Made by a program: the position numbers and the translations under genes. From the IMG/VR virus record IMGVR_UViG_3300042904_000498, positions 1 to 22,005 of that record: 22,005 nt of DNA, one strand, 5' to 3'. How positions within the stretch are numbered: position 1 is the first letter of the stretch; each line of letters starts with the position of its first letter. This DNA comes from a virus. The notes under the pieces are model-generated. The model saw only the letters and a program-made list of their open reading frames with translations, was not told the DNA's origin and made no database searches. Below, piece by piece: positions 4,833 to 22,005 of this stretch.

Positions 4833-5644
4833 TATACCAGTCTACCTCGATCAAAGAAGTGATTGCGCGGGTGATACGTAACACGCGGCTGCAGGACTCG
4901 TCCTATATCACTGACATGGGTGAATGGATACCGGAGGCTATGGGGATCCTAAAAACAAAATGGGTACTGGTGCCCCGTTACCAGGACGTGAACATATACT
5001 TTCATAAAGGTGCGCTTCCTTGCGACCTGGATTATATTACTGCAGTTGAGTGGCAGGGTCAAAGAGTGCAGCGTATGAACGGTGCCCGTATGGCGGAGGT
5101 AGTGCGTGGACAGATCACGTCTGACTCAGGACCGGAAGATATCTCGGTATTTGCATCTGACCCAGATACAGTGGAATCACCTAACGGTAATTTGATGTTC
5201 ACATCCGACGCCGTACCATTCTGTTCACTTACTGATACCGATTGTAACCAGCTTCCTTGCGCTACCGACCTATGGTACGATGTAGAGCTGGGTCACATTA
5301 CTATGTCCTTCAAGGATGGTATGGTTCGCGTACATTACCGTGGTCTTCCCCTGGACGAGGAAGGCTTCCCTTTGATACCGGATAACGAGGAGTATAAGCA
5401 GGCGCTGTACTGGTATTGCCGCGCGCAGATGATCGGTGCCGGTTATAAGGATACCGTATTTTCTTACGCCCACTGCGAAGCGCAGTTCGATAAGTATGTG
5501 GCAAAGGCTAAGGGCAGGATCAAGTACCCAAGTCCTGACCAGATGCAGTCACGCATCAATACGCTCAACCGGTTGGTATTCGATGACTCGTATTTCTCAC
5601 GTTTCTTTCATTCACCTAACGCAGAACCACAGTTCCCTATATGA
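4829..5644 (+). CDS. Tail adaptor protein, P22 gp4-like (crAss-like neck)
   Basis: The product has 271 residues. The N-terminus is helical and contains the pattern SIKEVIARVIRNTR followed by an acidic-aromatic DMGEWIPEAMGIL segment at about residues 30-41. It continues into a beta segment with ALPCDLDYITAVEWQGQRV. This arrangement (a helix bundle, then a P.DL..I..V strand) is typical of the gp4-like head-tail adaptors annotated just upstream of the muzzle gene in crAss-like phages. The C-terminal third is helical and rich in Tyr and Arg. It begins at an ATGA overlap and ends in another with the muzzle gene, so adaptor and muzzle are probably made together. It would join the portal to the tail tip. 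Confidence 0.65.
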   Translation: MIYQSTSIKEVIARVIRNTRLQDSSYITDMGEWIPEAMGILKTKWVLVPRYQDVNIYFHKGALPCDLDYITAVEWQGQRVQRMNGARMAEVVRGQITSDSGPEDISVFASDPDTVESPNGNLMFTSDAVPFCSLTDTDCNQLPCATDLWYDVELGHITMSFKDGMVRVHYRGLPLDEEGFPLIPDNEEYKQALYWYCRAQMIGAGYKDTVFSYAHCEAQFDKYVAKAKGRIKYPSPDQMQSRINTLNRLVFDDSYFSRFFHSPNAEPQFPI

Positions 5645-8600
5645 AACCCATTAAAGGACTGAACAGAGATTCCCGGCCTCATGAACAACCTGACGGTACT
5701 TATCCGTTCGGGAAAAACGGTATTCAGCATGATCAGCCCGGGAGCGTGTTTAATGAACCGGGTTTTGAATTGATGGATGCGGTAGCACCTTACCGTATCA
5801 TCGGTATCATAGAAACAGATGATAAGCCGGTACTGATCTCAACTGATAACACCAATACTGCTTTTGGGTATTTTAATCCGGCACTTGGCACCTATGAAGC
5901 GATCATTGATGACGCTACCTGGGGACTTACCGGTACGATCGGGTTTAATACCGATAGGTTTGTGACGGGTGTATCCCAGCGTAACTATAAAGGCGAACTG
6001 GTAATAGCATGCACGGATAAATCTGTTTTCCCGATATATCTCAACTGCGATAACCCGGGTCTTGAATCGATCAATGACCTGCGCCTGTTTCCTTTCTTTA
6101 CTCCGCCAGTGATCTCAGCTACCCAGATGTCTGGTGGAAGACTTTCTGCAGGTGCATACTATATCGCTGTTGGGTACGAACGTAACGACGGCACTTCTAC
6201 TCCTTACTCAGAAGTGAGCGAGGTAGTGGTGGTAACGCCGGACGCTAATGGTGGCAGGACCGGTAAGGCTCTTGAGATCACGATCACGCAAGCTGACGCG
6301 ACTTACGATATGCTCAGGGTAGCGATTATTGCGAAAGTAGATGGTAAGACTACCGCGGTAGAACTGCAGGACTTTATACCCATTTCATCCGGCACCGTAC
6401 AATTCATTTATACCGGTGACAACCTTACGACCGATATCTCGGTAGAAGAAGTACTCACGCCCGCAGCCCAGTACGAAACTGTTGGAACGATCGGTCAACT
6501 CAATGACGCGCTCTACCTGGCAGTACTTGAAAGCGAAGCTGACTTTAACGAGCTTCAACCTTACGCGCTCGCTGTTCAGCCGGAGTGGGTGAGTGAACTG
6601 ATAGATGCTACCGCTCCACCGCTTGATCATGTCAATGGAGTGAAGCGCGGAATGATGCACGAAGAGGTATATGCTGCTTACATCCGTTATACCAAGACCC
6701 GTGGCGGAAAGACCAAGTGGTTCCATATACCAGGCGTATCGCCGACCAGCCTGGATACGGGAGCTTCTACTGAGGCTACAACCGGTGGATCCACTACTTC
6801 AGTACCGAAGTTCAAAGTGGAAGACACGATCGGGTTCTTTGACCCGATAGCAAAAAGAGGAAAACCCGGTATTTGGCAGAACGCGACTGAGACCTATCCC
6901 GATACCGCTGATTTTGACGCGTCCGGGATCGGTGGCAGGAACTTGCGCGGTGAGAAGGTATTGCACCATAAGATGCCTTCTTTGAGATGGTGTAAGCAAA
7001 ATCTGTACGCTTCAGAAACTGAATATGGTAAAACAAAGCTTGACCTGCTTGGGATCAGGCTCACCAACGTAAGGATCCCGACGGCACTTGTCGGTCTTGT
7101 CAGTGGGTATGAACTAGGGTTCGCCAAGCGTACAACCAGTAATATGACCGTCTACGGCCAGAGTGCACTCTTGCACGGAGCGGTAAATAACTTCGACCTT
7201 TCTCACACAACAGCGAATTCCGAGATATATACCACTGGTGGAAACTGGAGATCAGAGATCTTCCACCAGGGTAAAGGTGACTATAACGATAACTGGGAAT
7301 TGGTACAGGTAAGGCGTGATACGATGCGCTTTCACGCGTTTGATATCCTGTTTACCAGGCCATCTATTGAGCCGACTTTTATTTCATCACAGCTCAAATT
7401 GAAAAGGGAGAATCTTATCACTGAAGGATACGTGGAAGATGGCTCTCACGAAGACGAGTACAATATGCCTACCACTCACCTGGTAGATTATACTCGCGGG
7501 CTGACACCGGTGGTAGCCGCCACGGGAGAAAAACTCCGTACAATCACAGACAGTTTTTATCTCACCGGCCAGATCAACTCGAACCGGTTTCAGAATATGC
7601 GTCATGAAGCTTGTTTCGCGGGCGTACTGGGCGGCACCAACTGGCCACTCAACGTCGGTACCGCGGCATTCAGGATACGTGGCCAGGGTTATACGGAGCC
7701 GTCGATCGGTTCTCCAGGCTTTGAAGAAACCTACCTGGTCAACCTGATCGGGGTCAAAACCGATATCTATGCAAACTTCTATTCCCAGCTTCTCGTCTCT
7801 GCAGGTAGGGCAAAGAGTCTTACTGACACTTCAGTCTTCTGGGGTGGAGATACGTTTGTCGTGGATTATACCTTCCACACCTACGGAAGACACGACTCCA
7901 TCGATACGCATGGAGAAGGTATCAAGGGTAAAAAAGTGATCCGTCGGCTGGTGTGTGAAAGTGCAGCCAATCTTCACCTGCGCTATGAACTTGACGCCAA
8001 CCAATATTCAAAGTGGTACCCGAGGACTTCAGTTACTGCTGGACCACCAACTAACCATTACATCACGCTATTTGACCGCTCTATTGAACCAAACCAGTTC
8101 GGTTATTCCCGTGACTTAAACTCACTCAATGAGCTGACTTCATCCGTTATATTCTCACCTTACCGCGAAGAGATCACGTCCCACCCTTACCGGGTACACC
8201 GGGGCGGTAAGCAATCCCGCCAGGCCCGGCCGCGTTCATGGCGGACATTTCTGCCACTGGACTTCTACGAGTGCCAGAAGAATATGGGAGCGATCACCCA
8301 CCTGGAAGGGATGGATGATCACTTGCTTATTCATCACGAGAACGCCCTTTTCCGCACGCAAGACAAAGCAAAGCTGGACGCGGGACTGCTCTCCGTTACA
8401 CTCGGGTCCGGGGACATCTTCCAGTTCGAGCCCCAGGAAGCGATCTCAGCCAAACTCGGCTACGCTGGTACCCAGCACGAGCTGGCCTGCGTGCGCACAC
8501 CGATCGGTTACGTATTCCTGGACGCCAAACTGGGTGAGCTTTATATCTACAAGGGAGAACCAAAGAACCTAAACCAGGGTCTCAACGCGTTTTTGCGCGA

Positions 8601-10437
8601 GTACCTGAAAATAACTGAGAACAATCCCTTCACCGGTAACGGGGTAACGATCGGTTGGGACCAGAAATATAAAAGGATCCTGCTGACCGTGAAGAACTCC
8701 CGGCCTACTATCACGGATTACAAGATCTATGAAGATACCGATGACTTCTGGAGTGACCTTACCGTAGGTGATATCATACTAAAAGACGGCCGTTACATAG
8801 AATACCTCGGACCTAACACTTCTGAGTTCGATTGTCCGGATGATAGCGGGCTGGTAGTATATACCTGGCAAAGGGAAGCGCCCTACTGCCTGGTAAATTC
8901 AGATGGTGAGACAACAGGCATGATCGGGTACGCCCTTCGTCAAAGGCTTGCTGACGGCGTACTGGATGGTACCTACGAGATCAACGAACCAAACGGCGGT
9001 ACCGGTACTTACTTCCCACCTGAGGTAGACGACTCATCCCCGGCCGAGTGCTCCGCTTCTCCTACGATCGAGTGGGAAGGAATGGCACCTTACTGCGAAC
9101 AGGACTCTACCTGCGCGGTCGGTGTGTTAAGTAACGGACAGTGTTTTGAGACACTTACTGAAGCTGCTACCGCGCCTGAGGAAACGCTTGCCCTGATCGT
9201 AGCTGCCTCTTCCAAGCTATGGAACCGGGGTGGTGCGCTCGTATACCAGGAAGGCTTCAACCTGGACGGTTCCGGAACAGTCCTTGCCAATATTACTACA
9301 CCGGTTCTCTGGCTCAATGGTACCGCTCAGTGGAATCAGAATAGTGACGCGGGCGTTACCAGTTCGCGCATGAATGCAGCTGGTGTATGGACTTCACCAG
9401 TAGCGGTATTAAACGAGTGGATCGGATTTTCTCACAAGATGACCGGTGTAGCTGGCCAGGTGATTCACGTCGGTATCAGTTCAGTCAATGCGTTTAAGAT
9501 AAGGCTCAACGGGGAAGTAGTAGTGTCTTGCCCTACCGGCCAGATCAGCGGATCGGAGGCTTACAACTACCTGCACATCTATCCCATCTCTCTTCGTAAC
9601 GGGGATAACTATATCGAGATGTTCGGTATGAACTTCGAGGATACACCCGGACTGGTAGCGGAGATATATGATAATACCCTTCCGGAACTGCAGGGCGCAG
9701 CGGTGGAAGGGGACCTGAATATCCTGTTTTCTTCCAAAGACAAGGTTGGCTATTACAATGAGCTTGGTTCGATATACGGTTACTCCTGCCCTGCAGGGTA
9801 CTCGCTTGATATCTCTGGTAGCCCGGCTGCATACTCTTGTGTAAAGATCAATGTCACGCCAGCCACCGGTACCAACTCGACTACCAAGTACTTTACTATG
9901 CGCAGACTCCTGATCAATGATGAGCCTACGGGCCTGGAGCAGGAGAATGATTACGGTGAAAATTACGTAGAGCCTATCACTGACGCTACCGAGTGTCCGC
10001 TGGGTTCACCTGACCAGACGCCACCGGAACAAAACATTACGGGAACGATCGCGCTGACTGACCTGGGTGAGGTAGGAGTTGGTCTGCAGATAGAACTTAG
10101 CGCTGCACCGACGCTCGCACTCCGGCTCAGGATCGGGGCTAGGTGGGCCGGGTCCCCTGCGGATTACTACGTGGGCAGCGAACTGTTTACTCCCGGGGCA
10201 AATGACTCACTCAACCCTGACTACGATGAAGATGAGCCGTTCTACGTGATCATCCCAGCTGGAGAAGACTCCATTACCATTTCGCCGGCCATCTGGCAGG
10301 ACGGAAGGAAAGGACAGGAGAACTCGCAGTGGTTGCATGACGAGACCCTGGAGCATTTGTATATAGAACTGCAAACACCGTCACAAAGATTTTCACTGGC
10401 GCTCACGGGTGTCGGTATCACAGTAACAAACGTATAA
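5641..10437 (+). CDS. Tail muzzle / P22 gp10-like 'stabilization' protein with added C-terminal domains
   Basis: This is a 1598-residue protein. The start (KGLNRDSRPHEQPDGTYPFGKNGI) has the NxD..p.eQPdGty...NGi pattern of the large tail 'stabilization'/muzzle protein of crAss-like phages. Residues 1 to about 1055 look like the long beta-rich core. Several additions follow. Two degenerate repeats about 70 residues apart each have Cys-(8 to 11)-Trp-(7)-Cys (C1065/W1076/C1083 and C1137/W1145/C1152, both with an APYC string). A jelly-roll-like domain spans about 1225-1345. A Cys-containing GYSCPAGYSLD module lies at about 1379-1410. A beta-sandwich-like end covers about 1465-1598. It overlaps the adaptor gene by ATGA and stops one base before the next start. 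It would form the tail tip; the extra domains may bind host glycans or stabilise the tip. Confidence 0.75.
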   Translation: MKPIKGLNRDSRPHEQPDGTYPFGKNGIQHDQPGSVFNEPGFELMDAVAPYRIIGIIETDDKPVLISTDNTNTAFGYFNPALGTYEAIIDDATWGLTGTIGFNTDRFVTGVSQRNYKGELVIACTDKSVFPIYLNCDNPGLESINDLRLFPFFTPPVISATQMSGGRLSAGAYYIAVGYERNDGTSTPYSEVSEVVVVTPDANGGRTGKALEITITQADATYDMLRVAIIAKVDGKTTAVELQDFIPISSGTVQFIYTGDNLTTDISVEEVLTPAAQYETVGTIGQLNDALYLAVLESEADFNELQPYALAVQPEWVSELIDATAPPLDHVNGVKRGMMHEEVYAAYIRYTKTRGGKTKWFHIPGVSPTSLDTGASTEATTGGSTTSVPKFKVEDTIGFFDPIAKRGKPGIWQNATETYPDTADFDASGIGGRNLRGEKVLHHKMPSLRWCKQNLYASETEYGKTKLDLLGIRLTNVRIPTALVGLVSGYELGFAKRTTSNMTVYGQSALLHGAVNNFDLSHTTANSEIYTTGGNWRSEIFHQGKGDYNDNWELVQVRRDTMRFHAFDILFTRPSIEPTFISSQLKLKRENLITEGYVEDGSHEDEYNMPTTHLVDYTRGLTPVVAATGEKLRTITDSFYLTGQINSNRFQNMRHEACFAGVLGGTNWPLNVGTAAFRIRGQGYTEPSIGSPGFEETYLVNLIGVKTDIYANFYSQLLVSAGRAKSLTDTSVFWGGDTFVVDYTFHTYGRHDSIDTHGEGIKGKKVIRRLVCESAANLHLRYELDANQYSKWYPRTSVTAGPPTNHYITLFDRSIEPNQFGYSRDLNSLNELTSSVIFSPYREEITSHPYRVHRGGKQSRQARPRSWRTFLPLDFYECQKNMGAITHLEGMDDHLLIHHENALFRTQDKAKLDAGLLSVTLGSGDIFQFEPQEAISAKLGYAGTQHELACVRTPIGYVFLDAKLGELYIYKGEPKNLNQGLNAFLREYLKITENNPFTGNGVTIGWDQKYKRILLTVKNSRPTITDYKIYEDTDDFWSDLTVGDIILKDGRYIEYLGPNTSEFDCPDDSGLVVYTWQREAPYCLVNSDGETTGMIGYALRQRLADGVLDGTYEINEPNGGTGTYFPPEVDDSSPAECSASPTIEWEGMAPYCEQDSTCAVGVLSNGQCFETLTEAATAPEETLALIVAASSKLWNRGGALVYQEGFNLDGSGTVLANITTPVLWLNGTAQWNQNSDAGVTSSRMNAAGVWTSPVAVLNEWIGFSHKMTGVAGQVIHVGISSVNAFKIRLNGEVVVSCPTGQISGSEAYNYLHIYPISLRNGDNYIEMFGMNFEDTPGLVAEIYDNTLPELQGAAVEGDLNILFSSKDKVGYYNELGSIYGYSCPAGYSLDISGSPAAYSCVKINVTPATGTNSTTKYFTMRRLLINDEPTGLEQENDYGENYVEPITDATECPLGSPDQTPPEQNITGTIALTDLGEVGVGLQIELSAAPTLALRLRIGARWAGSPADYYVGSELFTPGANDSLNPDYDEDEPFYVIIPAGEDSITISPAIWQDGRKGQENSQWLHDETLEHLYIELQTPSQRFSLALTGVGITVTNV

Positions 10438-10438
10438 T

Positions 10439-11200
10439 ATGCCAACAGGTTGTATGAATCCGGCCGCGGCCAATTACTCTCCCGGGTACACTACTCCGGA
10501 CAGGAGTTGTATCTACCTGTTGAAAAACGAGGAAGTCTGCCACATGTTCCGTGACCTGCAGGCTGACGATGCGGAGGATAGGTCCTTTACCTTGTCTTAC
10601 TCGGTACCGGGTGGTTCCTGGGTATTCTTTCATGATTATCATCCTGATTTCTATTTCCATACGCGTGATCAACTCTGGAACCTGAAGGATAATAGGGTAT
10701 ACAAGCACCACACGGGAGACCCGGGGCAGTTCCATGATGCGGATAAAAAGCCGTTCTTCATTGATATTGTATTCAAAAGTGGGGAAGAACTCCTGCTGGA
10801 ATCGGTCAATTGGGTGAGCGAGTTCCTGAACGCAGACAGTGCCGATCAACTGCTTGGTACGATTTCTCATATATCCTGCTGGAACTCACGTCAACACTCC
10901 GGAAGGATTGCGCTGACCCAGGTGTTTGAGAAACTGCAGTATGATGCTCGCCGATTGAAAGGCCAGTGGAGCTTCAATAACCTGCGGGATATTCTCCTGA
11001 GTAACGGGGAACAGTTCCTGCTCAGTCTCTTTGATGATTTTGAGTTGGATCAAAACCAGGTAGACAGCGCTGCGAGCTGGTACACTAAGCAACTGATGCA
11101 GGATAACTGGTTTTGTGTTAGATTTGAATTCGATAACTCGACTCCCGGGACACTGGTTATCCATGATACCGAGATCGAAGCCCTAAAAACCCATAGATAA
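10439..11200 (+). CDS. Probable detached muzzle C-terminal module with Cys-containing head
   Basis: The 253-residue protein has two parts. Residues 4-26 (C5...NP.A.NYSP....D.SC24.Y) match a short Cys-bounded, Asp/Asn-rich motif common in Bacteroidota surface proteins. From about residue 45 onward (LSYSVPGGSWVFFHDYHPD, then RDQLWNLKDNRVYKH, a strand region near 100, and a C-terminal FCVRFEFDN...LVIHDTEIEALKTHR) it resembles what I recall as the C-terminal end of fused crAss-like muzzle proteins. The start lies one base after the muzzle stop (TAATATG), in a different frame, so reinitiation is likely. It most likely works as a separate subunit of the tail tip. A sequencing frameshift between the two genes cannot be ruled out without read data. 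Confidence 0.5.
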   Translation: MPTGCMNPAAANYSPGYTTPDRSCIYLLKNEEVCHMFRDLQADDAEDRSFTLSYSVPGGSWVFFHDYHPDFYFHTRDQLWNLKDNRVYKHHTGDPGQFHDADKKPFFIDIVFKSGEELLLESVNWVSEFLNADSADQLLGTISHISCWNSRQHSGRIALTQVFEKLQYDARRLKGQWSFNNLRDILLSNGEQFLLSLFDDFELDQNQVDSAASWYTKQLMQDNWFCVRFEFDNSTPGTLVIHDTEIEALKTHR

Positions 11201-14014: not shown

Positions 14015-16185
14015 TGGGACTCTACGACAGATACCAATCACAGAACTCGTCCACTATACCTACGTTCCAGGGCTCATCGGGCCCTGAAGCCATTAAAGTA
14101 GGTCAGTACCTGCAGGGTCTTTACGATACCGGGCAAGCTGGTTGGATGAAGCTGATGGGAGATAAAGAGCAGCTCACTTCTCTTAAACAGGACGAAGGAC
14201 TGAAAAACGAGCTGTACAGCAGCGTGACCGGGGAGCTGGATAAGATGAGCAAAGAAGGAAACTTCGAAGACATGATCCCGCGCGTACAACTTCTTGGGTC
14301 TAATTTCGCCAGCCGTTACCGCGAACTCATGGCACCTATCCAGCAACGCCAGGAGTATGAAACAAAGATGCTGGAAGATAAAGATCGCAATCTCACTCCA
14401 TGGCAGAAGCAATTACTTCTCGCTAAGAGTGATCATGAATATAAAGGACTCCAGAAAGACGCTCAGGGCAGGTATGTAGGTGGATACCGGGGTACTATGC
14501 CTGATAAGAATATTGACGTCAACGCAAAGGTTGATAAGTGGATGGATGGGATCGCTGTGGCTGAAGGGGGCAGCAAAATGACCAATGACAACGGTATCTG
14601 GAAAACATGGACAGGTAAAACCTGGAAGCAACTCGAACCGCAAAAGATAGAGAATGCACTTCGATTGGCTATGGCCAATGACCAGGAGTACCAGGGTTAC
14701 CGCAAGATGATGGGAGACCTTTCCGGTTTCTCGGCTGGTCAAAGGATCACCGATCCAAACCAGATATCAGATCCTGCTTTCCGTAAAGCGGTGGAAGATA
14801 CTGCAGCCAAGTACGGTGTGCCTATTAATGAGGCGGCCGGGATCGTGGTTGGCTCCCAGACTCAGAAGGATATCGAGAACTACGCACTCAGTTATGCCAA
14901 GACCAAGTATGCGGTAAATAACCTGTTTACTGATAACGGTAACGAACTTGGTGATGTGGAGAAAGAAGCACGTAAGAAAGCGCTCACTGATGAGTCTCCT
15001 TATATCGTAGCTGGTCCTAATGTACAGACTACTGATGACGAGGCCAATATTACCAAGCTCAATGAAAACTTCGGTACCGTTACAACGAACCTGAAAGAGG
15101 TGAATAAAGAGATCGTCAGGTTGAATACGCAGCTTAAGCGTACAGATCTGAAGCCTGATGAAAGGTCGCAGATGCAAACGCAGGTGCATAATCTGAAAGA
15201 GCAGCAACGCGGGTTGGTAGAGAAGACCGATCGCATCAACCAGGTGATCGATTACTCCAAGGCTAAGACCGTTCAGTCAATGGGTTACACTACGTTCGAA
15301 GACTTTAAGAAGGCCCAAATGACTAAAGTTTTAGATGTAGTTAACAATGGTACAAAGGACAAACAGGTAACTTTTGGAAAGAATGATAGCTTCAAGCTTA
15401 CTAAAGAGCAAGTAGCTGAGGCTATTGTTGATGGTAGGATAAAACTTGCAAACACAGGTCGGCCTTATTATATAGATCACGATGGTACCGAGCATAAGAT
15501 GGGTGATAAGTATATGGTGATGGTCACTAATGCAATCACTCAAAGTGACGTACAGAAATTCAATAACAACTGGGCCAGGGATCATAAGAACAACGTGAAA
15601 GATTACTCTGTATCTACTCAGGTGATTAATTTACCCAAGTCGGAACAGGATGCAGTGACCAGTGCGCTCAAAGGTGGTGTTAATGGTGTATCGTTCAGGA
15701 CACCGGGCAGTTACGGTGATGGTGACGAGAAAGAACGTCCAGCAAACTTCAAGGTATACGGTATCCGTAACATTTCGCCTAACGGTGAGGTTACACTTAT
15801 CGTGCGTGAACTGGATGAAGATAACAAGGAGACAGGTAAGGAGTATGAAGCAGTGGCCAAGAACTCAAACATTGCAGGAGAACTTGCACGCAAGTTCGCA
15901 AAGCAGGGTCAGACCAATCGCCAGGCACAGGTTATCTCCCAGATACTCACTCCAGGTTCCGGTGCGTCTCAACTGTTCAATAAGCCGATTGGTTTTGGTA
16001 TGTCGATCGGAACAGTCGGCGGTAAAGCGCTGTCAGTGAAAGTAATCAAAACCGAAGGTGGAAAGATATATTATGGACTTGTAGATCCTACCGGTACCAT
16101 TCAAAGTACTACTGATGGGAAACAATTCTATACCGATGATATTGGTGAGGCGGGCCAGTGGGTGGACCAACTAAAAACTGATTAA
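14014..16185 (+). CDS. Large helical virion cargo-type protein
   Basis: The 723-residue protein is mainly helical in its first 450 residues. It has a strong heptad-like coiled-coil stretch at about 345-415 (NLKEVNKEIVRLNTQLKR and onward), and is more beta-rich afterwards. There is no signal peptide, membrane segment or catalytic motif. Both ends overlap their neighbours as TAATG, tying it to the 308- and 1701-residue genes. Residues 430-509 are encoded by a locally AT-rich patch (15301-15540; 37 percent GC by hand count over its first 180 bases, against about 47-48 percent in flanking samples). Position in the run of cargo genes suggests a protein packed in the capsid or neck. I cannot assign a biochemical activity. 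Confidence 0.5.
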   Translation: MGLYDRYQSQNSSTIPTFQGSSGPEAIKVGQYLQGLYDTGQAGWMKLMGDKEQLTSLKQDEGLKNELYSSVTGELDKMSKEGNFEDMIPRVQLLGSNFASRYRELMAPIQQRQEYETKMLEDKDRNLTPWQKQLLLAKSDHEYKGLQKDAQGRYVGGYRGTMPDKNIDVNAKVDKWMDGIAVAEGGSKMTNDNGIWKTWTGKTWKQLEPQKIENALRLAMANDQEYQGYRKMMGDLSGFSAGQRITDPNQISDPAFRKAVEDTAAKYGVPINEAAGIVVGSQTQKDIENYALSYAKTKYAVNNLFTDNGNELGDVEKEARKKALTDESPYIVAGPNVQTTDDEANITKLNENFGTVTTNLKEVNKEIVRLNTQLKRTDLKPDERSQMQTQVHNLKEQQRGLVEKTDRINQVIDYSKAKTVQSMGYTTFEDFKKAQMTKVLDVVNNGTKDKQVTFGKNDSFKLTKEQVAEAIVDGRIKLANTGRPYYIDHDGTEHKMGDKYMVMVTNAITQSDVQKFNNNWARDHKNNVKDYSVSTQVINLPKSEQDAVTSALKGGVNGVSFRTPGSYGDGDEKERPANFKVYGIRNISPNGEVTLIVRELDEDNKETGKEYEAVAKNSNIAGELARKFAKQGQTNRQAQVISQILTPGSGASQLFNKPIGFGMSIGTVGGKALSVKVIKTEGGKIYYGLVDPTGTIQSTTDGKQFYTDDIGEAGQWVDQLKTD

Positions 16186-19100
16186 TGCCAGATCCTAAGG
16201 ACCTCAATAGTATATATGATCCCAATGGGGTCAATGACCCGGTACCTGTACCGAAGGTTAAACCGCGCTCCCTTGATGAACTTCACAAGGGAGTTATGCG
16301 TACCTATACTAAGGCGGGTACGCCGGAAGAAGTTGATGTAAGTGAGTATATCGATTACATGCCGGGCGGTGTTTATACTACACGTAAACCAATTGACTTC
16401 ATACGTGGAGAGAACCAGACAGTCGGAGAGAAACTCTGGCGTCGTACCGCTAACCTGATACCGAATATTGCAGCGGGACTGGTAGAAGGTGTTGGTTACC
16501 TCGGCGCACTGGCAACTGAATGGGGTGATGATAAGGATTATTCCAACTGGCTCACCCAAGGTGCAGCCGCAATGAAGAACTCATGGGCTGGAGATACGTA
16601 TAGAGAGAGCAATGATGTGTGGGATATCGGTGATCCTACCTGGTGGATCGATAACGTTTTCTCACTGGCCGAGACCGCTACGACCTTTGCCATTGGTGGT
16701 ATGGGTGCTTCCGCTGTCTTGGGAAAAGCGGCAAGTACTGTTGGTAAACTGGCTCAGGCCGGCCAACTCGGTACGCGTGCACTTAATGCAGGTGCAAAGC
16801 TTGGTACCGCAGGTTACCTGGCGTTCACTGAAGGAGCCATGAGTGGCGCAAAGGTTTACGACCAGGTGTTCGATGATCAATTCAAAAAACATATTACCAA
16901 TGGTCTTACGCCGGAAGAAGCAAAGGAGCGTGCAGCACATACTGCTTCTCAGTCTGCTGCGACTACCGTTCAGTTAAATACCATACTCAATACCGGTCTC
17001 AACCTCACGTCTATTTCTCCTTTCTTTCGTAAAGCAGATGACGTCGTAGGTGATATCATGAAGCAACAAATGCGTCGCCAGGCGGGAGAGACACTGGAAG
17101 ACGTGGGTAAACGAGTGGCAGCGCTTGAAGCCAGTACGTTTGGAAAGCAACTGCGCTCGCGTAAAGGTTACCTGGCTGAAATGGGCCAGGAGTCTCTGGA
17201 AGAACTTACCAACCAGTTCGCTGAACAGACCGGTATCCAGGAAGGAACCAAAGGAAGAACCCATGGGTTCCTGGAGCAACTCGGTCAACTGGAGAACTAC
17301 TTCGCCCGTACCATGAATGAAGAGGGTGCACTTGCTGCAACCCTGGGAGCTTTCGGCGGGTTCGCGCAAACAGCGATCACTTATAACATGATACCGTCCA
17401 GGTCTGTCGAGAAACTCGGCAGTGACGGGCAGGCCCTGCAACGAGTGGATAAGGATGGTAATTTCCAGACTGATGCAGCCGGCAAACCGGTATATCAAAA
17501 GAAAAGGATATCAGCACGCAGCTATGACAACTGGATGATGCAGCAACACTTCTCCAGTGTGAAGGACGCCGTGGCAAACGAGATAGATAATTTCACCAAG
17601 CTTCAGAATGAACTGGCGGTAGCTGCTGCCAAGGGAGATTCAGTAGAGGTGTCCAGGATCAAGCAAGAGATGTTCGATATCGGCCAGATCGCGGCCGTTC
17701 GTAATGGTCTCACTGAACCGTGGATCGCTACCTATAACGATATTGCCGAGATGGATCAGGCTGAGGCTGTGAAGAAGGGCCTCGCTACTGACGATACCGA
17801 TGAGGAGTTCAGGGCTAAGGCCAAGCAGGCTGGTGTGGAACTCAAAGAAGCTCAGCAGGAATACCAGGCTCTTCAGAAGAAATACGGTACGCTCTACGAA
17901 GATAACGCCGGTATGAAGCAAGTAGTGGACATGGTGTTTGCCCGCAAGATCGAACTGAAAGGTTGGGACAAACAACTCAAAGAGCACGATGAGAAACTGA
18001 AAGAGATCGAGAAAGAAAGAGATGAGCTGGCCAAACTCTCCAATCCGGAAGACTACGACCAGCACATGGCGGGTTATGTAACCAACGTCAAGGCTTCTCA
18101 GGAAGTGAACCAGAGACTCAAAGCCGACCTGGAAGAACTCCAGTCTGCAGCTGCGTCCAATGACATCAAGAAGATCAAGCGTTTGCTTAAGAAATACCGT
18201 GCAGTCGGAGTCAATGATTCAGATCTGCAGCCAGCGGTCGATGACCTGGTACGTAAGCTTGTCGCTCACAACGAGAAACTCCAGGCTAGGGTAAAGGAAG
18301 CTGAAGACACACTCTTTAATTCATCTGGTTTCACCGCCTGGCAGGCTGAGCATCCGGAAGGAAAGTTCGAAACATTTATGCAGGAGGTAGTCAAGAATTA
18401 TTCACTTGACTCCCGCGCGATATCATATAAGGCGAGCATTGATGAGTCACGTAAGCAACACGCGATCGCTTCTCAGAACTTAGGTGACATACTGAAAACA
18501 AAAGGACTCCAGAAGTTTGCGTCAAAAGCAAAGTCCTGGAACGATCGTATTATGGAGGAGGCTGAGAACCTGGAAAAGGTAAAACTCGCCGACTTGCAAA
18601 CCAGGGCCAAGGACAAGGCTACACTCAGGCGTATCGACAAGATACAACTGGACGCTATGGCCCAGCGTTACAAAGATGAGTTGGATAAGGTGGAAAAGAG
18701 GATCACGGAAGTGACCGCGCGGATTGCCGAGGTAAGAACAGAAAGAGAGAGCAAACCGTGGAGAGCATGGGATGAGAGAAAGATTTTGCGGCGCGAAGAG
18801 CTGCAACTGAAAAAAGAGCTGGAGCAACTGATTGCCCGGAAAAGAAAGCTCGAAACCCTTTACCATGATTCTCATATTGACACTTCTACTACTGGCGAGA
18901 TGCCTGTACCTGTGGGAGAAGTTACAAAGGAAAACGATGAACTCGGAGAAGAAGAAACTCCGTCCGAGGTCGATCCTTTAACTGAAATAGAAAACTCATC
19001 TGTCCCGGCTGAAGAAGCAACTGAACCGGTAAAAAGCGAGGCTGATCGTCTGATCGAAGAGGCCCTGGCTGACGCACCGGTAGCGGAAGTGACCGAAGAG

Positions 19101-21290
19101 GAACAGCGTGAGGACCCGGAGATCGCTTACCTGGAAGCTGCTATGGCGGCACCGAAACCTGTACAGAAAGAACTGCTCAGGCTGCTCACTGGTATCCGTG
19201 ACGGATCGATCGGGTTTTCCTATGACCTTTTAAAACAGCAAGTAAATGATGGTACTATTTCCCAGCCGGACGCTGCGCAACTACTGCAGAAACTTTACGA
19301 TTACATCGAAGCTACAAGGTCACAGGAAGCGTTTACTCAAGTTGTTACAGAGAAGGTAGAGGAGCAGAAGAGTAACCTGCCCAAGGTTGATGTCAATGTC
19401 CCGGGACTCCCGGACTCGCCGGCCATCTTTATTATGGATGACGCGTTAGCTGAAGAGCTGCCGGGTGAGATGCACCACGGCGGAAAGAAGACCAAGGACG
19501 TACTCTCAGTTGCCAACTCCACGATCAAGTACCGAGAAATAAAGCAAGGTGACAAGTACCGCAAAGTAGCTGATCCTACGTCGCTGTCAGAAACAACCAA
19601 CCCGGATGTTTTGATACCGGGGAAACTCACTGAAGGTCATCCCGTTCGTTTCGAGGTGGATACTGCCTACGATGGTGATATCAATATAGATGATTTCCAT
19701 GTCCAGGACGAATACGGTGAGCGTGGCCAGCGCAAAGAGAAGACCGCCGATCGTATGCGCGCTGGCAGAGTAGTACCTACGGAAGATAACATTGGTAGTG
19801 TAGCGATCAAGGTAGTGGACACCGTTACCGGTAACACGATCGGTTATGTTCGCCGCCTTGACTGGGTTACCGCCAAGTACCCGGGTACCAGCGACTACCG
19901 TAACGTAGCTGATACCGAGGTGGTAAACGATACCGTGATCGATATTATGCCTCGTCATATTGATGAGATCATGAGCCTTCGCCGTAAGGTCATTGAGCAG
20001 TTCAACGCCAACGGTACCGGGTTGGAAGGAGAGATCACCGGTAAAGGAACAGGATCGCTCATCAAGAATATACAGGTCAATCTCAATACAGATAAGACAA
20101 AAGCAGTACTAGGTCTTGCCCGTTCCAGTAAGCCTGAGAATTCAATGCTACCTGACGAATCGCTGGAGATTGCGGTTGTCCAGAGTGGTAAGGCTTACAC
20201 CGGAAAGGATTATATGTTCAGCAGGTCTCAAGGGTTCGATACCGTAGATCTCCCTGATGGCTCGGTGGTTGTCATGCTCCCCGGGGCGAATGGGCAATAC
20301 CTGTACGCACCACTCGTGGGCCACCGACTGGTAGACGATCAAAGGAAGACTGCCGTTAACGCGGTATCAAAAGCAATCGAGCTTTACCTATCCAATGACG
20401 GATCTAACCCGCAGGCGGAAGCTGAGATCCTGGAACTCCAGAAACTGAGCGGTTTTGATATCTCAACTGAGCAAGGACTGAAAGCTTTCATTAACCAGTA
20501 TTTCACTTACTCTCAGGACTTCCTGGACTCAGTTACATCTGTTGCGGCGGCCAAAGATTCAGAAGAGGCTCAAGAGCGTTTCCTGTTCTCGATCCAGGAA
20601 AGGACCGGTACCCAGAACAAAGGCAACATCAAGCTGGGCTGGAGCTATTCAGGCCGTGCTCCTGTCTACGCAAAGCTCACCGGTGGAAGACTGGACCCTA
20701 AATTTGTCGAGGCCCTGGAAGAAGGCTTTGCTACCCGCTCACGCGCAGTGGTATACACCAATCCGGAACTAGGTATCCGCGGTATCAACTCAAGTGGGTC
20801 GTTCACGGAGATCTACGCCGATAAGAATGGTAAGTTCAAGCCACGTCACTTTCCTTCATACAACGAATACGTGAAGTCTTTCTCCCGTACGATCGTGTAC
20901 GGACGTAACCAGATCGGTGACAGGTATGTGTATACGGCCAACCCGTCCATACCGTTCGCGGTCAAGGTAAAACCGGTAGCTACCAACCTGGTAGTGAAAC
21001 AGAACGAAACTCCTGACAAGGTCCAGGACAACCCGGAACTGCCTTACGATGCGAAGGCCGCCAATATGTTCGACCTGGACAATGAGTACAGGAGCGTAGA
21101 GGTCAGTGAGCGGGGAACCGCCCCGGATAATGCCCGGGAGCTGAGTGTGCAGACTCTCACAGAAATCTATAACTTTACTCCCGTAGACAATCGCAACGGT
21201 AAGACCGTCCTGGAAGTATACGAAGACTTATTGAGCAGGGGCCACAGCTTCATACCGGATGGATTCAACCCGTTTACCCGTTGTCTCTAA
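16185..21290 (+). CDS. Giant virion cargo/ejection-type protein (1701 residues)
   Basis: Domains in order: a soluble N-terminus to about 150; an Ala/Gly-rich hydrophobic segment at about 157-215 with repeated small residues; a second hydrophobic stretch at about 380-405 (ATLGAFGGFAQTAI); several long charged coiled-coil stretches between about 540 and 892; an acidic, Glu/Pro-rich disordered linker at about 902-980; then a mixed alpha/beta C-terminal half. That half has a VRFEVDTAYDGDI block near 1149 and a GYVRRLDWV block near 1219, both of which I recall from large crAss-like cargo proteins. It ends SFIPDGFNPFTRCL. No nuclease, protease or polymerase signature was recognised. It starts by TAATG overlap and ends 6 bases before the next gene. 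Glycine-zipper plus coiled-coil architecture suggests an ejected, possibly channel-forming, protein. Confidence 0.55.
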   Translation: MPDPKDLNSIYDPNGVNDPVPVPKVKPRSLDELHKGVMRTYTKAGTPEEVDVSEYIDYMPGGVYTTRKPIDFIRGENQTVGEKLWRRTANLIPNIAAGLVEGVGYLGALATEWGDDKDYSNWLTQGAAAMKNSWAGDTYRESNDVWDIGDPTWWIDNVFSLAETATTFAIGGMGASAVLGKAASTVGKLAQAGQLGTRALNAGAKLGTAGYLAFTEGAMSGAKVYDQVFDDQFKKHITNGLTPEEAKERAAHTASQSAATTVQLNTILNTGLNLTSISPFFRKADDVVGDIMKQQMRRQAGETLEDVGKRVAALEASTFGKQLRSRKGYLAEMGQESLEELTNQFAEQTGIQEGTKGRTHGFLEQLGQLENYFARTMNEEGALAATLGAFGGFAQTAITYNMIPSRSVEKLGSDGQALQRVDKDGNFQTDAAGKPVYQKKRISARSYDNWMMQQHFSSVKDAVANEIDNFTKLQNELAVAAAKGDSVEVSRIKQEMFDIGQIAAVRNGLTEPWIATYNDIAEMDQAEAVKKGLATDDTDEEFRAKAKQAGVELKEAQQEYQALQKKYGTLYEDNAGMKQVVDMVFARKIELKGWDKQLKEHDEKLKEIEKERDELAKLSNPEDYDQHMAGYVTNVKASQEVNQRLKADLEELQSAAASNDIKKIKRLLKKYRAVGVNDSDLQPAVDDLVRKLVAHNEKLQARVKEAEDTLFNSSGFTAWQAEHPEGKFETFMQEVVKNYSLDSRAISYKASIDESRKQHAIASQNLGDILKTKGLQKFASKAKSWNDRIMEEAENLEKVKLADLQTRAKDKATLRRIDKIQLDAMAQRYKDELDKVEKRITEVTARIAEVRTERESKPWRAWDERKILRREELQLKKELEQLIARKRKLETLYHDSHIDTSTTGEMPVPVGEVTKENDELGEEETPSEVDPLTEIENSSVPAEEATEPVKSEADRLIEEALADAPVAEVTEEEQREDPEIAYLEAAMAAPKPVQKELLRLLTGIRDGSIGFSYDLLKQQVNDGTISQPDAAQLLQKLYDYIEATRSQEAFTQVVTEKVEEQKSNLPKVDVNVPGLPDSPAIFIMDDALAEELPGEMHHGGKKTKDVLSVANSTIKYREIKQGDKYRKVADPTSLSETTNPDVLIPGKLTEGHPVRFEVDTAYDGDINIDDFHVQDEYGERGQRKEKTADRMRAGRVVPTEDNIGSVAIKVVDTVTGNTIGYVRRLDWVTAKYPGTSDYRNVADTEVVNDTVIDIMPRHIDEIMSLRRKVIEQFNANGTGLEGEITGKGTGSLIKNIQVNLNTDKTKAVLGLARSSKPENSMLPDESLEIAVVQSGKAYTGKDYMFSRSQGFDTVDLPDGSVVVMLPGANGQYLYAPLVGHRLVDDQRKTAVNAVSKAIELYLSNDGSNPQAEAEILELQKLSGFDISTEQGLKAFINQYFTYSQDFLDSVTSVAAAKDSEEAQERFLFSIQERTGTQNKGNIKLGWSYSGRAPVYAKLTGGRLDPKFVEALEEGFATRSRAVVYTNPELGIRGINSSGSFTEIYADKNGKFKPRHFPSYNEYVKSFSRTIVYGRNQIGDRYVYTANPSIPFAVKVKPVATNLVVKQNETPDKVQDNPELPYDAKAANMFDLDNEYRSVEVSERGTAPDNARELSVQTLTEIYNFTPVDNRNGKTVLEVYEDLLSRGHSFIPDGFNPFTRCL

Positions 21291-21296
21291 ACCCTT

Positions 21297-22005
21297 ATGT
21301 CTTCTGTATGTCATCACCTGGCTCCCAACGGCCAGAAATCCATTCTTTACCAGCAACTAGAACTTAAGGTTGGTGCCGACAAGGCCCATGACATCTGGAC
21401 GGACATCCGTTCCCAGCAGTTCTTGAATAAGCATGGCGACTGGACCAACACGACAGGATCGGTGGAGTCAGGATCTTCTTATACAAATCACTCCGGTGGA
21501 GCCAATGGGGCAGATACCTGGTGGGAAAAGATCGGCAAGGAGTACGGTGTAGACCAACATAATCAATACTGGCACGGTACCAAGACACCTACTGGTAATT
21601 TCGAGATCAGTAATGAGGAGATTGAAGAGGGTTGGCAGCAGGTATTGAAAGCAAATCTGTCTCTTAAACGCAGGCCGAATGCAGCGAAGCATAAGTCCTT
21701 ACTCGGCAGGAACTGGTTCCAGGTAAAAAACTCAGATGGCGTATTTGCGATAGGAAAGCTTGCTTCTCCCGCAACTGTTGACGGTGGAACAGGTTGGGCT
21801 GTACAGATGGCCATTGATAATAACAAACCGGTTTACGTATTCGACCAGGAAACAATGGATTGGTACGAGTATTCCTATAAACTGAACAGATTCATAAGAA
21901 CGACTACGCCAAAACTCACAAAGAACTTTGCCGGTATTGGTAGCAGGAAACTGACTGAGGCTGGTAAAGCAGCGATCCGTACGGTATATGCAAAAACCTT
22001 TACAG
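21297..22005 (+). CDS. SLOG-like (Rossmann-type) cargo-region protein, 3' truncated
   Basis: The gene runs off the window; 236 codons are visible from the ATG at 21297, 6 bases after the previous stop. Residues 5-49 form an opening module (C..LAPNGQKSILY, ending FLNKHGDW) that I recall at the front of large multi-domain proteins of crAss-like and related phages. A SLOG-like core follows: SGGANGAD at 66-73, RNWFQV at 138-143 with SDGVFAIG next, VDGGTGWAV at 161-169 and VYVFDQ at 179-184. A further GSR-type motif (FAGIGSR, 211-217) comes last. The GGAxGAD, RN and GG.G motifs match those of the SLOG superfamily (DprA, LOG/YspA-type, ThsA sensor domain), which bind nucleotides or their derivatives. 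The ligand and activity are unknown. The rest of the protein may carry more domains. Confidence 0.65.
   Translation, partial: MSSVCHHLAPNGQKSILYQQLELKVGADKAHDIWTDIRSQQFLNKHGDWTNTTGSVESGSSYTNHSGGANGADTWWEKIGKEYGVDQHNQYWHGTKTPTGNFEISNEEIEEGWQQVLKANLSLKRRPNAAKHKSLLGRNWFQVKNSDGVFAIGKLASPATVDGGTGWAVQMAIDNNKPVYVFDQETMDWYEYSYKLNRFIRTTTPKLTKNFAGIGSRKLTEAGKAAIRTVYAKTFT

Follow-up and report, generated by a model that had tools for sequence, protein, structure and literature searches.

No other group of viruses in the human gut is as abundant as the crassviruses, and virions of phi-crAss001 contain RNA polymerase-associated proteins (PMC10172136). Little is known about how these phages handle host immunity in the first minutes of infection. 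The crAss-type RNA polymerase represented in the Protein Data Bank (PDB), phi14:2 gp66 (6VR4), is a chain of 2194 aa. Giant injected polymerases that carry exchangeable effectors (ART, zincin, lysozyme, PBECR) have been described among polyvalent virion proteins and N4-like virion RNA polymerases (vRNAPs) (PMC5512222). SLOG domains are known as nucleotide sensors, as in the SLOG sensor of Thoeris, ThsA, which binds cADPR (ThsA residues: PMC10022894), and viral SLOG domains have already been predicted to counter host ADP-ribose or cADPR-like signals (PMC9503650). A phage family from Cr30, GAP32, Atu_ph07, cr109_1, and others is collected in PHROG 768, which is labelled 'DprA-like DNA recombination-mediator protein'.

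The locus compared here lies at the 3' end of the window, the whole 22,005-base stretch of DNA that was analysed, which is a complete IMG/VR virus record. It encodes a SLOG domain of the same family as PHROG 768 (E 5e-13); many members of that PHROG are stand-alone proteins, whereas the window copy is the N-terminal passenger of a very probable vRNAP, and the PHROG label makes no mention of the circular permutation described below. The domain shares the SLOG superfamily and a proposed NAD-linked setting with ThsA, but no SIR2 partner was seen with the window family, for which cADPR binding is a prediction. In contrast to the polyvalent proteins of PMC5512222, the carriers of SLOG here are crAss-type (DPBB) vRNAPs as well as N4-type vRNAPs. 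The main text of that paper (Iyer et al. 2017) mentions neither SLOG nor crAss, and the main text of a large crassvirus genome survey (PMC7886860) does not mention SLOG; within the literature available outside subscription, the SLOG-vRNAP fusion is real and apparently undescribed so far. It is a variant of the polyvalent virion-protein theme.

Gene context and identity of the terminal reading frame

The features that define the setting of the locus are as follows.

5641..10437, + strand: crassvirus muzzle protein (Pfam crAss_MUZ, E 1.5e-17; PHROG virion structural protein)
16185..21290, + strand: 1701-aa giant, a probable ejected cargo protein, orthologous to the protein that precedes the vRNAP in L151 and L052
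21288..21290, + strand: in-frame TAA closing the upstream giant gene; the stop is also present in L151 and L052, each time followed by another ATG after a few bases
21297..22004, + strand: first 236 residues encoded by a giant gene that is very probably the vRNAP gene; ATG start, 3' end open
21297..21455, + strand: conserved leader APNGxxSxLYxxLxxKxGxxKAHxIW...GDW, residues 1-53

Because the record ends with the window, the last open reading frame (ORF) is cut by the end of the contig. The crAss_MUZ match of the muzzle protein places the contig in Crassvirales; the C-terminus of a major head protein is encoded at 9-368, and further upstream proteins are virion structural proteins of crassvirus families. 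The 1701-aa giant is 44-53% identical to its L151 orthologue and 30% identical to the 1772-aa L052 orthologue, with no Pfam match over the cut-off and no convincing PHROG match. The TAA that closes its gene is a true gene boundary, and read-through or recoding at this stop was ruled out by the separate ATG gene found there in L151 and L052.

In the syntenic phage L151 and in L052, a giant gene starts a few bases past the orthologue of the 1701-aa protein. Its product has 3900 aa in L151 and 3835 aa in L148, the source of the L052 polymerase gene in full length, and both are longer than the 2194 aa of 6VR4. These orthologues of the window gene match 6VR4 (E 1.7e-23 for L151 and 4.9e-25 for L052), resemble it over the catalytic core, and contain the GSDFDxDK motif. 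Over residues 2-53, the leader of the window ORF shares 65% identity with the beginning of the L151 polymerase (E 1.7e-20, with a shuffle control run); past the leader, no similarity to the L151 polymerase was found (an equally high score was reached by 147 of 200 shuffles). The window stops before any polymerase motif, so the vRNAP identity rests on the leader and on synteny, and by these the window ORF very probably encodes the N-terminal part of a crAss-type vRNAP, one giant polypeptide.

A first-pass annotation of the sequence had described this ORF as encoded directly after a giant protein, which is correct, the stop being conserved as a gene end in both relatives. It had also placed the gene beside virion cargo genes; the virion-cargo setting stands, with the crassvirus muzzle upstream, but the SLOG region is very probably a passenger domain of the vRNAP and not a separate gene. 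Delivery at infection, which it had suggested, is likely, given that the SLOG domain is very probably on the vRNAP polypeptide, whose packaging and ejection we infer from crassvirus virion studies.

Separately, the muzzle gene looks split into the ORF at 5641-10437 and a second ORF at 10439-11200 in a different frame, and the two match consecutive parts of phrog_28748 and phrog_15100. This may be a true split gene, a frameshift, or an assembly error.

Type and conservation of the SLOG domain

The domain follows the leader and contains four motifs.

21474..22004, + strand: SLOG domain, circularly permuted DprA-type, residues ~60-236, essentially complete (from the alignment, AlphaFold2, and the rotation scan)
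21492..21515, + strand: motif 1, SGGANGAD, residues 66-73, in the loop that follows the opening strand of the permuted domain
21708..21725, + strand: motif 2, RNWFQV, residues 138-143, in a helix; the RNWFQVKN consensus is nearly invariant
21777..21803, + strand: motif 3, VDGGTGWAV, residues 161-169; the next position, 170, is Gln in place of the catalytic Glu of LOG enzymes
21927..21947, + strand: motif 4, FAGIGSR, residues 211-217, the canonical first Rossmann strand shifted to the C-terminus

SLOG relatives, 39-57% identical, were gathered from viral contigs by a peptide-pattern search, and 35 sequences were aligned. Residues G68, D73, R138, N139, W140, Q142, V143, K144, N145, G163, G164, and T165 are invariant in this alignment, and the dense invariant polar set (D73, E111, R138, N139, Q142, K144, and N145) argues for a ligand site that has been kept. 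Stand-alone relatives end at about the same point as the domain in the window ORF. For residues 59-236, AlphaFold2 predicts an alpha/beta Rossmann-like fold with alternating strands and helices at a mean pLDDT of 97.0. The elements of a SLOG core, namely a GG loop, an R-N helix, and a GGT/SGT loop, are found by the motifs, the AlphaFold2 model, and the DprA profile match after permutation.

Structural and sequence databases gave little by direct comparison. Foldseek searches of the PDB with two models returned no match at E <= 1e-3, a sequential comparison being expected to perform poorly on a permuted fold, and direct sequence searches of the PDB returned no usable match for the domain. As no solved structure matches, there is no homologue from which to deduce the ligand. 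Weak fold matches in a viral library include DprA-like and molybdenum-cofactor-carrier proteins. Naming of the domain by Pfam and NCBIfam is weak or absent, and the Pfam matches of the window ORF are sub-threshold (Nuc_deoxyrib_tr, E 0.013; cpYpsA, 14.7 bits).

The domain was then compared with DprA sequences in a rotation scan, with 100 column shuffles as the control (maximum score 19.2). In native order, 24 columns were aligned with a score of 27.7. When the domain was cut before residues 189-213, 134-137 columns were aligned to DprA with a score of 42.0 and an E-value of 7e-6, which, like the other profile-comparison E-values given here, is from a single comparison on modest alignments. The rise in score on reordering indicates that the domain is circularly permuted, and from these profile comparisons it is assigned as a circularly permuted DprA-type SLOG with canonical strand 1 at the C-terminus.

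A described permuted family close to the window domain is cpYpsA (PF12694), whose motifs are collinear with those of the window domain (SGGxxGxD, RxxxxVxxSD, GGT, and, at the C-terminus, NVAGPRES as the counterpart of FAGIGSR). Native-order comparison with true cpYpsA proteins gave E 0.0016 and a score of 27.2 against a shuffle maximum of 26.4 (0 of 100 as high). The window domain nevertheless stays below the PF12694 cut-off (14.7 versus 26.2 bits), as does the copy from Klebsiella phage Pylas (16.2 bits), and it differs from cpYpsA in having additional sequence between motifs 1 and 2 and a beta-hairpin at residues 188-202. Membership in the LOG family was considered and rejected, as hhalign found no match to PF03641 sequences and the catalytic Glu is not conserved. 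At this position, 20 of 31 sequences have Gln, five have Ala, five have Glu, and one has Met, which makes LOG-type cleavage unlikely and perhaps leaves binding alone. The YAcAr family (PF10686) was unusable as a comparison because it gave a single weak match in 118 genomes.

Much of the first-pass annotation of the domain holds. The three SLOG motifs that it had read at residues 66-73, 138-143, and 161-169 are exact, and all are invariant or nearly so among the 35 aligned sequences, but it overlooked FAGIGSR. The Rossmann-like fold that it had proposed to check is predicted by AlphaFold2. Its assignment to the SLOG domains stands, with the amendment that the domain is of a permuted DprA type and is not LOG-like. 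It had further mentioned similar sequences in gut phages that had no assigned function; such sequences are known there, but they do carry a label, the listed phage homologues being 32-46% identical to the window SLOG and many of them annotated 'DprA-like DNA recombination-mediator protein'.

A passenger slot and the spread of SLOG

The slot after the leader holds different sequences in different phages: SLOG in the window, DUF7831 in L151 (E 1e-29), and an ADP-ribosyltransferase (ART)-like sequence in L158. The latter (LYRGE...GSFFTD...EEAQYYN) was recognized by eye and has no Pfam match. SLOG is absent from the close relatives L151 and L052. The same leader also opens other crAss-type vRNAPs and other crassvirus giants, where it is followed by ART-PolyVal, metallopeptidase-like, or other domains, and further domains found on vRNAP ORFs are NADAR, a helicase, and an AlkB-like domain (below the cut-off). 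From these sequence comparisons, the region between the leader and the polymerase core is identified as a swappable passenger slot. Several effector domains are thus exchanged on one giant polypeptide, as in polyvalent proteins, with the location in the virion being predicted. A slot behind a recognizable leader also offers an easy way to look for new early-acting phage effectors, between the leader and the polymerase core of other crassviruses.

Two side observations concern this arrangement. The ~50-residue leader (APNGxxSxLxxxL...GDW) starts several different crassvirus giant proteins and may be a packaging or ejection signal. DUF7831 occupies the vRNAP passenger slot at L151:5048-5600, which suggests that it is an early-acting injected phage effector domain.

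The frequency of SLOG was estimated from 141 distinct crAss-type polymerase loci sampled by the catalytic core, regardless of SLOG. The domain is present at 19 of these loci (13%, a value that may be somewhat high as the query core alignment included SLOG-bearing giants), in all 19 cases on the polymerase ORF and at widely varying positions before or after the core. N4-type vRNAPs with SLOG were found in Klebsiella phage Pylas and Alteromonas phage PT15-A5 (Pfam N4_RNAP_helical and vRNAP_dom_2), and many other relatives are stand-alone proteins of ~185 aa. In a tree of 44 SLOG sequences, in which several branches are long and single placements are unsure, about five switches between the fused and the solo state are needed, of which well-supported branches force at least three, indicating that SLOG moved onto, or off, ejected polymerases several times. 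A single origin of the fused forms is therefore unsupported. A search for plasmid-borne relatives found none, and no SLOG protein matched the PADLOC defence models, whose matches were limited to the bacterial WYL neighbours.

Bacterial copies are a separate matter. In four Flavobacteriaceae chromosomes (L053, L054, L055, and L056, ~6000-7900), a SLOG gene adjoins a WYL-type regulator between miaB and topA; the WYL domain was confirmed by Pfam for L053 and L055, and miaB and topA were named by eye. SLOG is fused to a UPF0227-like hydrolase in L053 (by Pfam) and in L054 (by similar sequence). The SLOG and WYL genes possibly form a small signalling operon. Of 300 sampled Flavobacteriaceae genomes, one has a SLOG gene of the window family.

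NAD and ADP-ribose context and candidate roles

The surroundings of the family suggest NAD or ADP-ribose chemistry. NADAR lies on the same vRNAP ORF in L014, L199, and L245, and by coordinates also in cr130_1 and L022, the frames of which need TAG read as glutamine. In L027 and L041, Macro-domain proteins are encoded next to solo SLOG genes or not far from them. NADARs undo guanine ADP-ribosylation (PMC11125620), and PMC13232231 recently reports phage enzymes that degrade ADPR signals. A coupling of SLOG to NADAR had looked promising in single loci and was dropped, as two of the 141 vRNAP loci have both domains (Fisher p = 0.35, not significant). Together with the ART-like sequence in L158 and the ART-PolyVal domains behind the leader of other crassvirus giants, the NADAR and Macro contexts make a role related to NAD or ADP-ribose plausible, and it is from such context that we infer a ligand and an anti-defence role for the SLOG domain.

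In the mechanism that we propose, the vRNAP would be carried in the capsid and would enter the cell together with the DNA or before it, and the SLOG domain would arrive before any phage gene expression. It would most likely bind, and perhaps cleave, an ADP-ribose-type nucleotide, either a cADPR-like immune signal or an ADP-ribose adduct, and the host alarm would stay silent during synthesis of the first transcripts by the polymerase. If this is true, a signal-binding domain on the polymerase would act before phage expression, at a time too early for anti-defence proteins that are made after infection. The complete reading, in which a vRNAP N-terminus with a leader and a SLOG slot is injected, binds an ADP-ribose-type ligand, and mutes the host alarm, is in our judgment evenly poised between right and wrong. 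Points that weigh against it are the end of the window short of any polymerase motif, the chance-level overlap of SLOG with NADAR, the mostly replaced LOG Glu, and the lack of a matching solved structure or PADLOC model. More tentative, and somewhat short of an even chance, is the generalization that two unrelated kinds of injected polymerase, crAss-type and N4-type, carry exchangeable anti-alarm enzymes, of which the permuted SLOG would be one, removing or sequestering an ADP-ribose-type signal before expression.

The resemblance to DprA raises the alternative that the domain is a nucleic-acid-binding accessory that holds entering ssDNA or assists in loading the polymerase onto early promoters. 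DprA is the best distant profile match, PHROG 768 bears that name, and fusion to the unrelated DPBB crAss-type and N4-type polymerases fits DNA handling. Such an accessory would not be expected, however, to occur in 13% of the sampled crAss-type vRNAPs at such different positions before or after the core, to give way in the same slot to DUF7831 in L151 and to an ART-like sequence in L158, or to exist as solo forms in phages and beside a WYL regulator in bacteria, and we regard this explanation as unlikely. The Gln that mostly stands at the position of the LOG catalytic Glu would also suit a sensor through which a nucleotide signal switches the activity of the polymerase or of a neighbouring domain, as in ThsA; SLOG-sensor fusions to nucleic-acid enzymes have been proposed for phages (PMC9503650), and in bacteria the homologues come with a WYL-domain regulator as partner. 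The unfixed position of SLOG relative to the polymerase, and the many stand-alone relatives of ~185 aa that have no fused partner to switch, make a sensor quite unlikely.

A role in the metabolism of nucleotides, such as that of a nucleoside deoxyribosyltransferase-like N-glycosidase acting on free nucleotides, has only a slim chance of being correct. It would account for the weak Nuc_deoxyrib_tr likeness (Pfam E 0.013 in the window and 1.2e-4 in the best relative) and for the Nuc_deoxyri_tr2 protein encoded two ORFs upstream of the solo SLOG gene in L010, but the window score is under the Pfam cut-off and bulk metabolism has no obvious gain from fusion to an ejected polymerase. Deoxyribosyltransferases are expected to have a Glu in the motif-3 loop, and this residue is not conserved in the SLOG loop. 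A domain with no ligand chemistry, present in the giant protein as an inert insertion or packaging element, is very improbable: close relatives such as L151 and L052 can be without SLOG, yet the polar motif residues are strictly conserved across solo, fused, and bacterial forms, which is unexpected for an inert spacer.

As a minor observation, the large phage contig L041 encodes, near 4838 and 9194 and within ~3.5 kb of its solo SLOG gene, a CoaB-like DFP domain as well as a Macro-domain protein.
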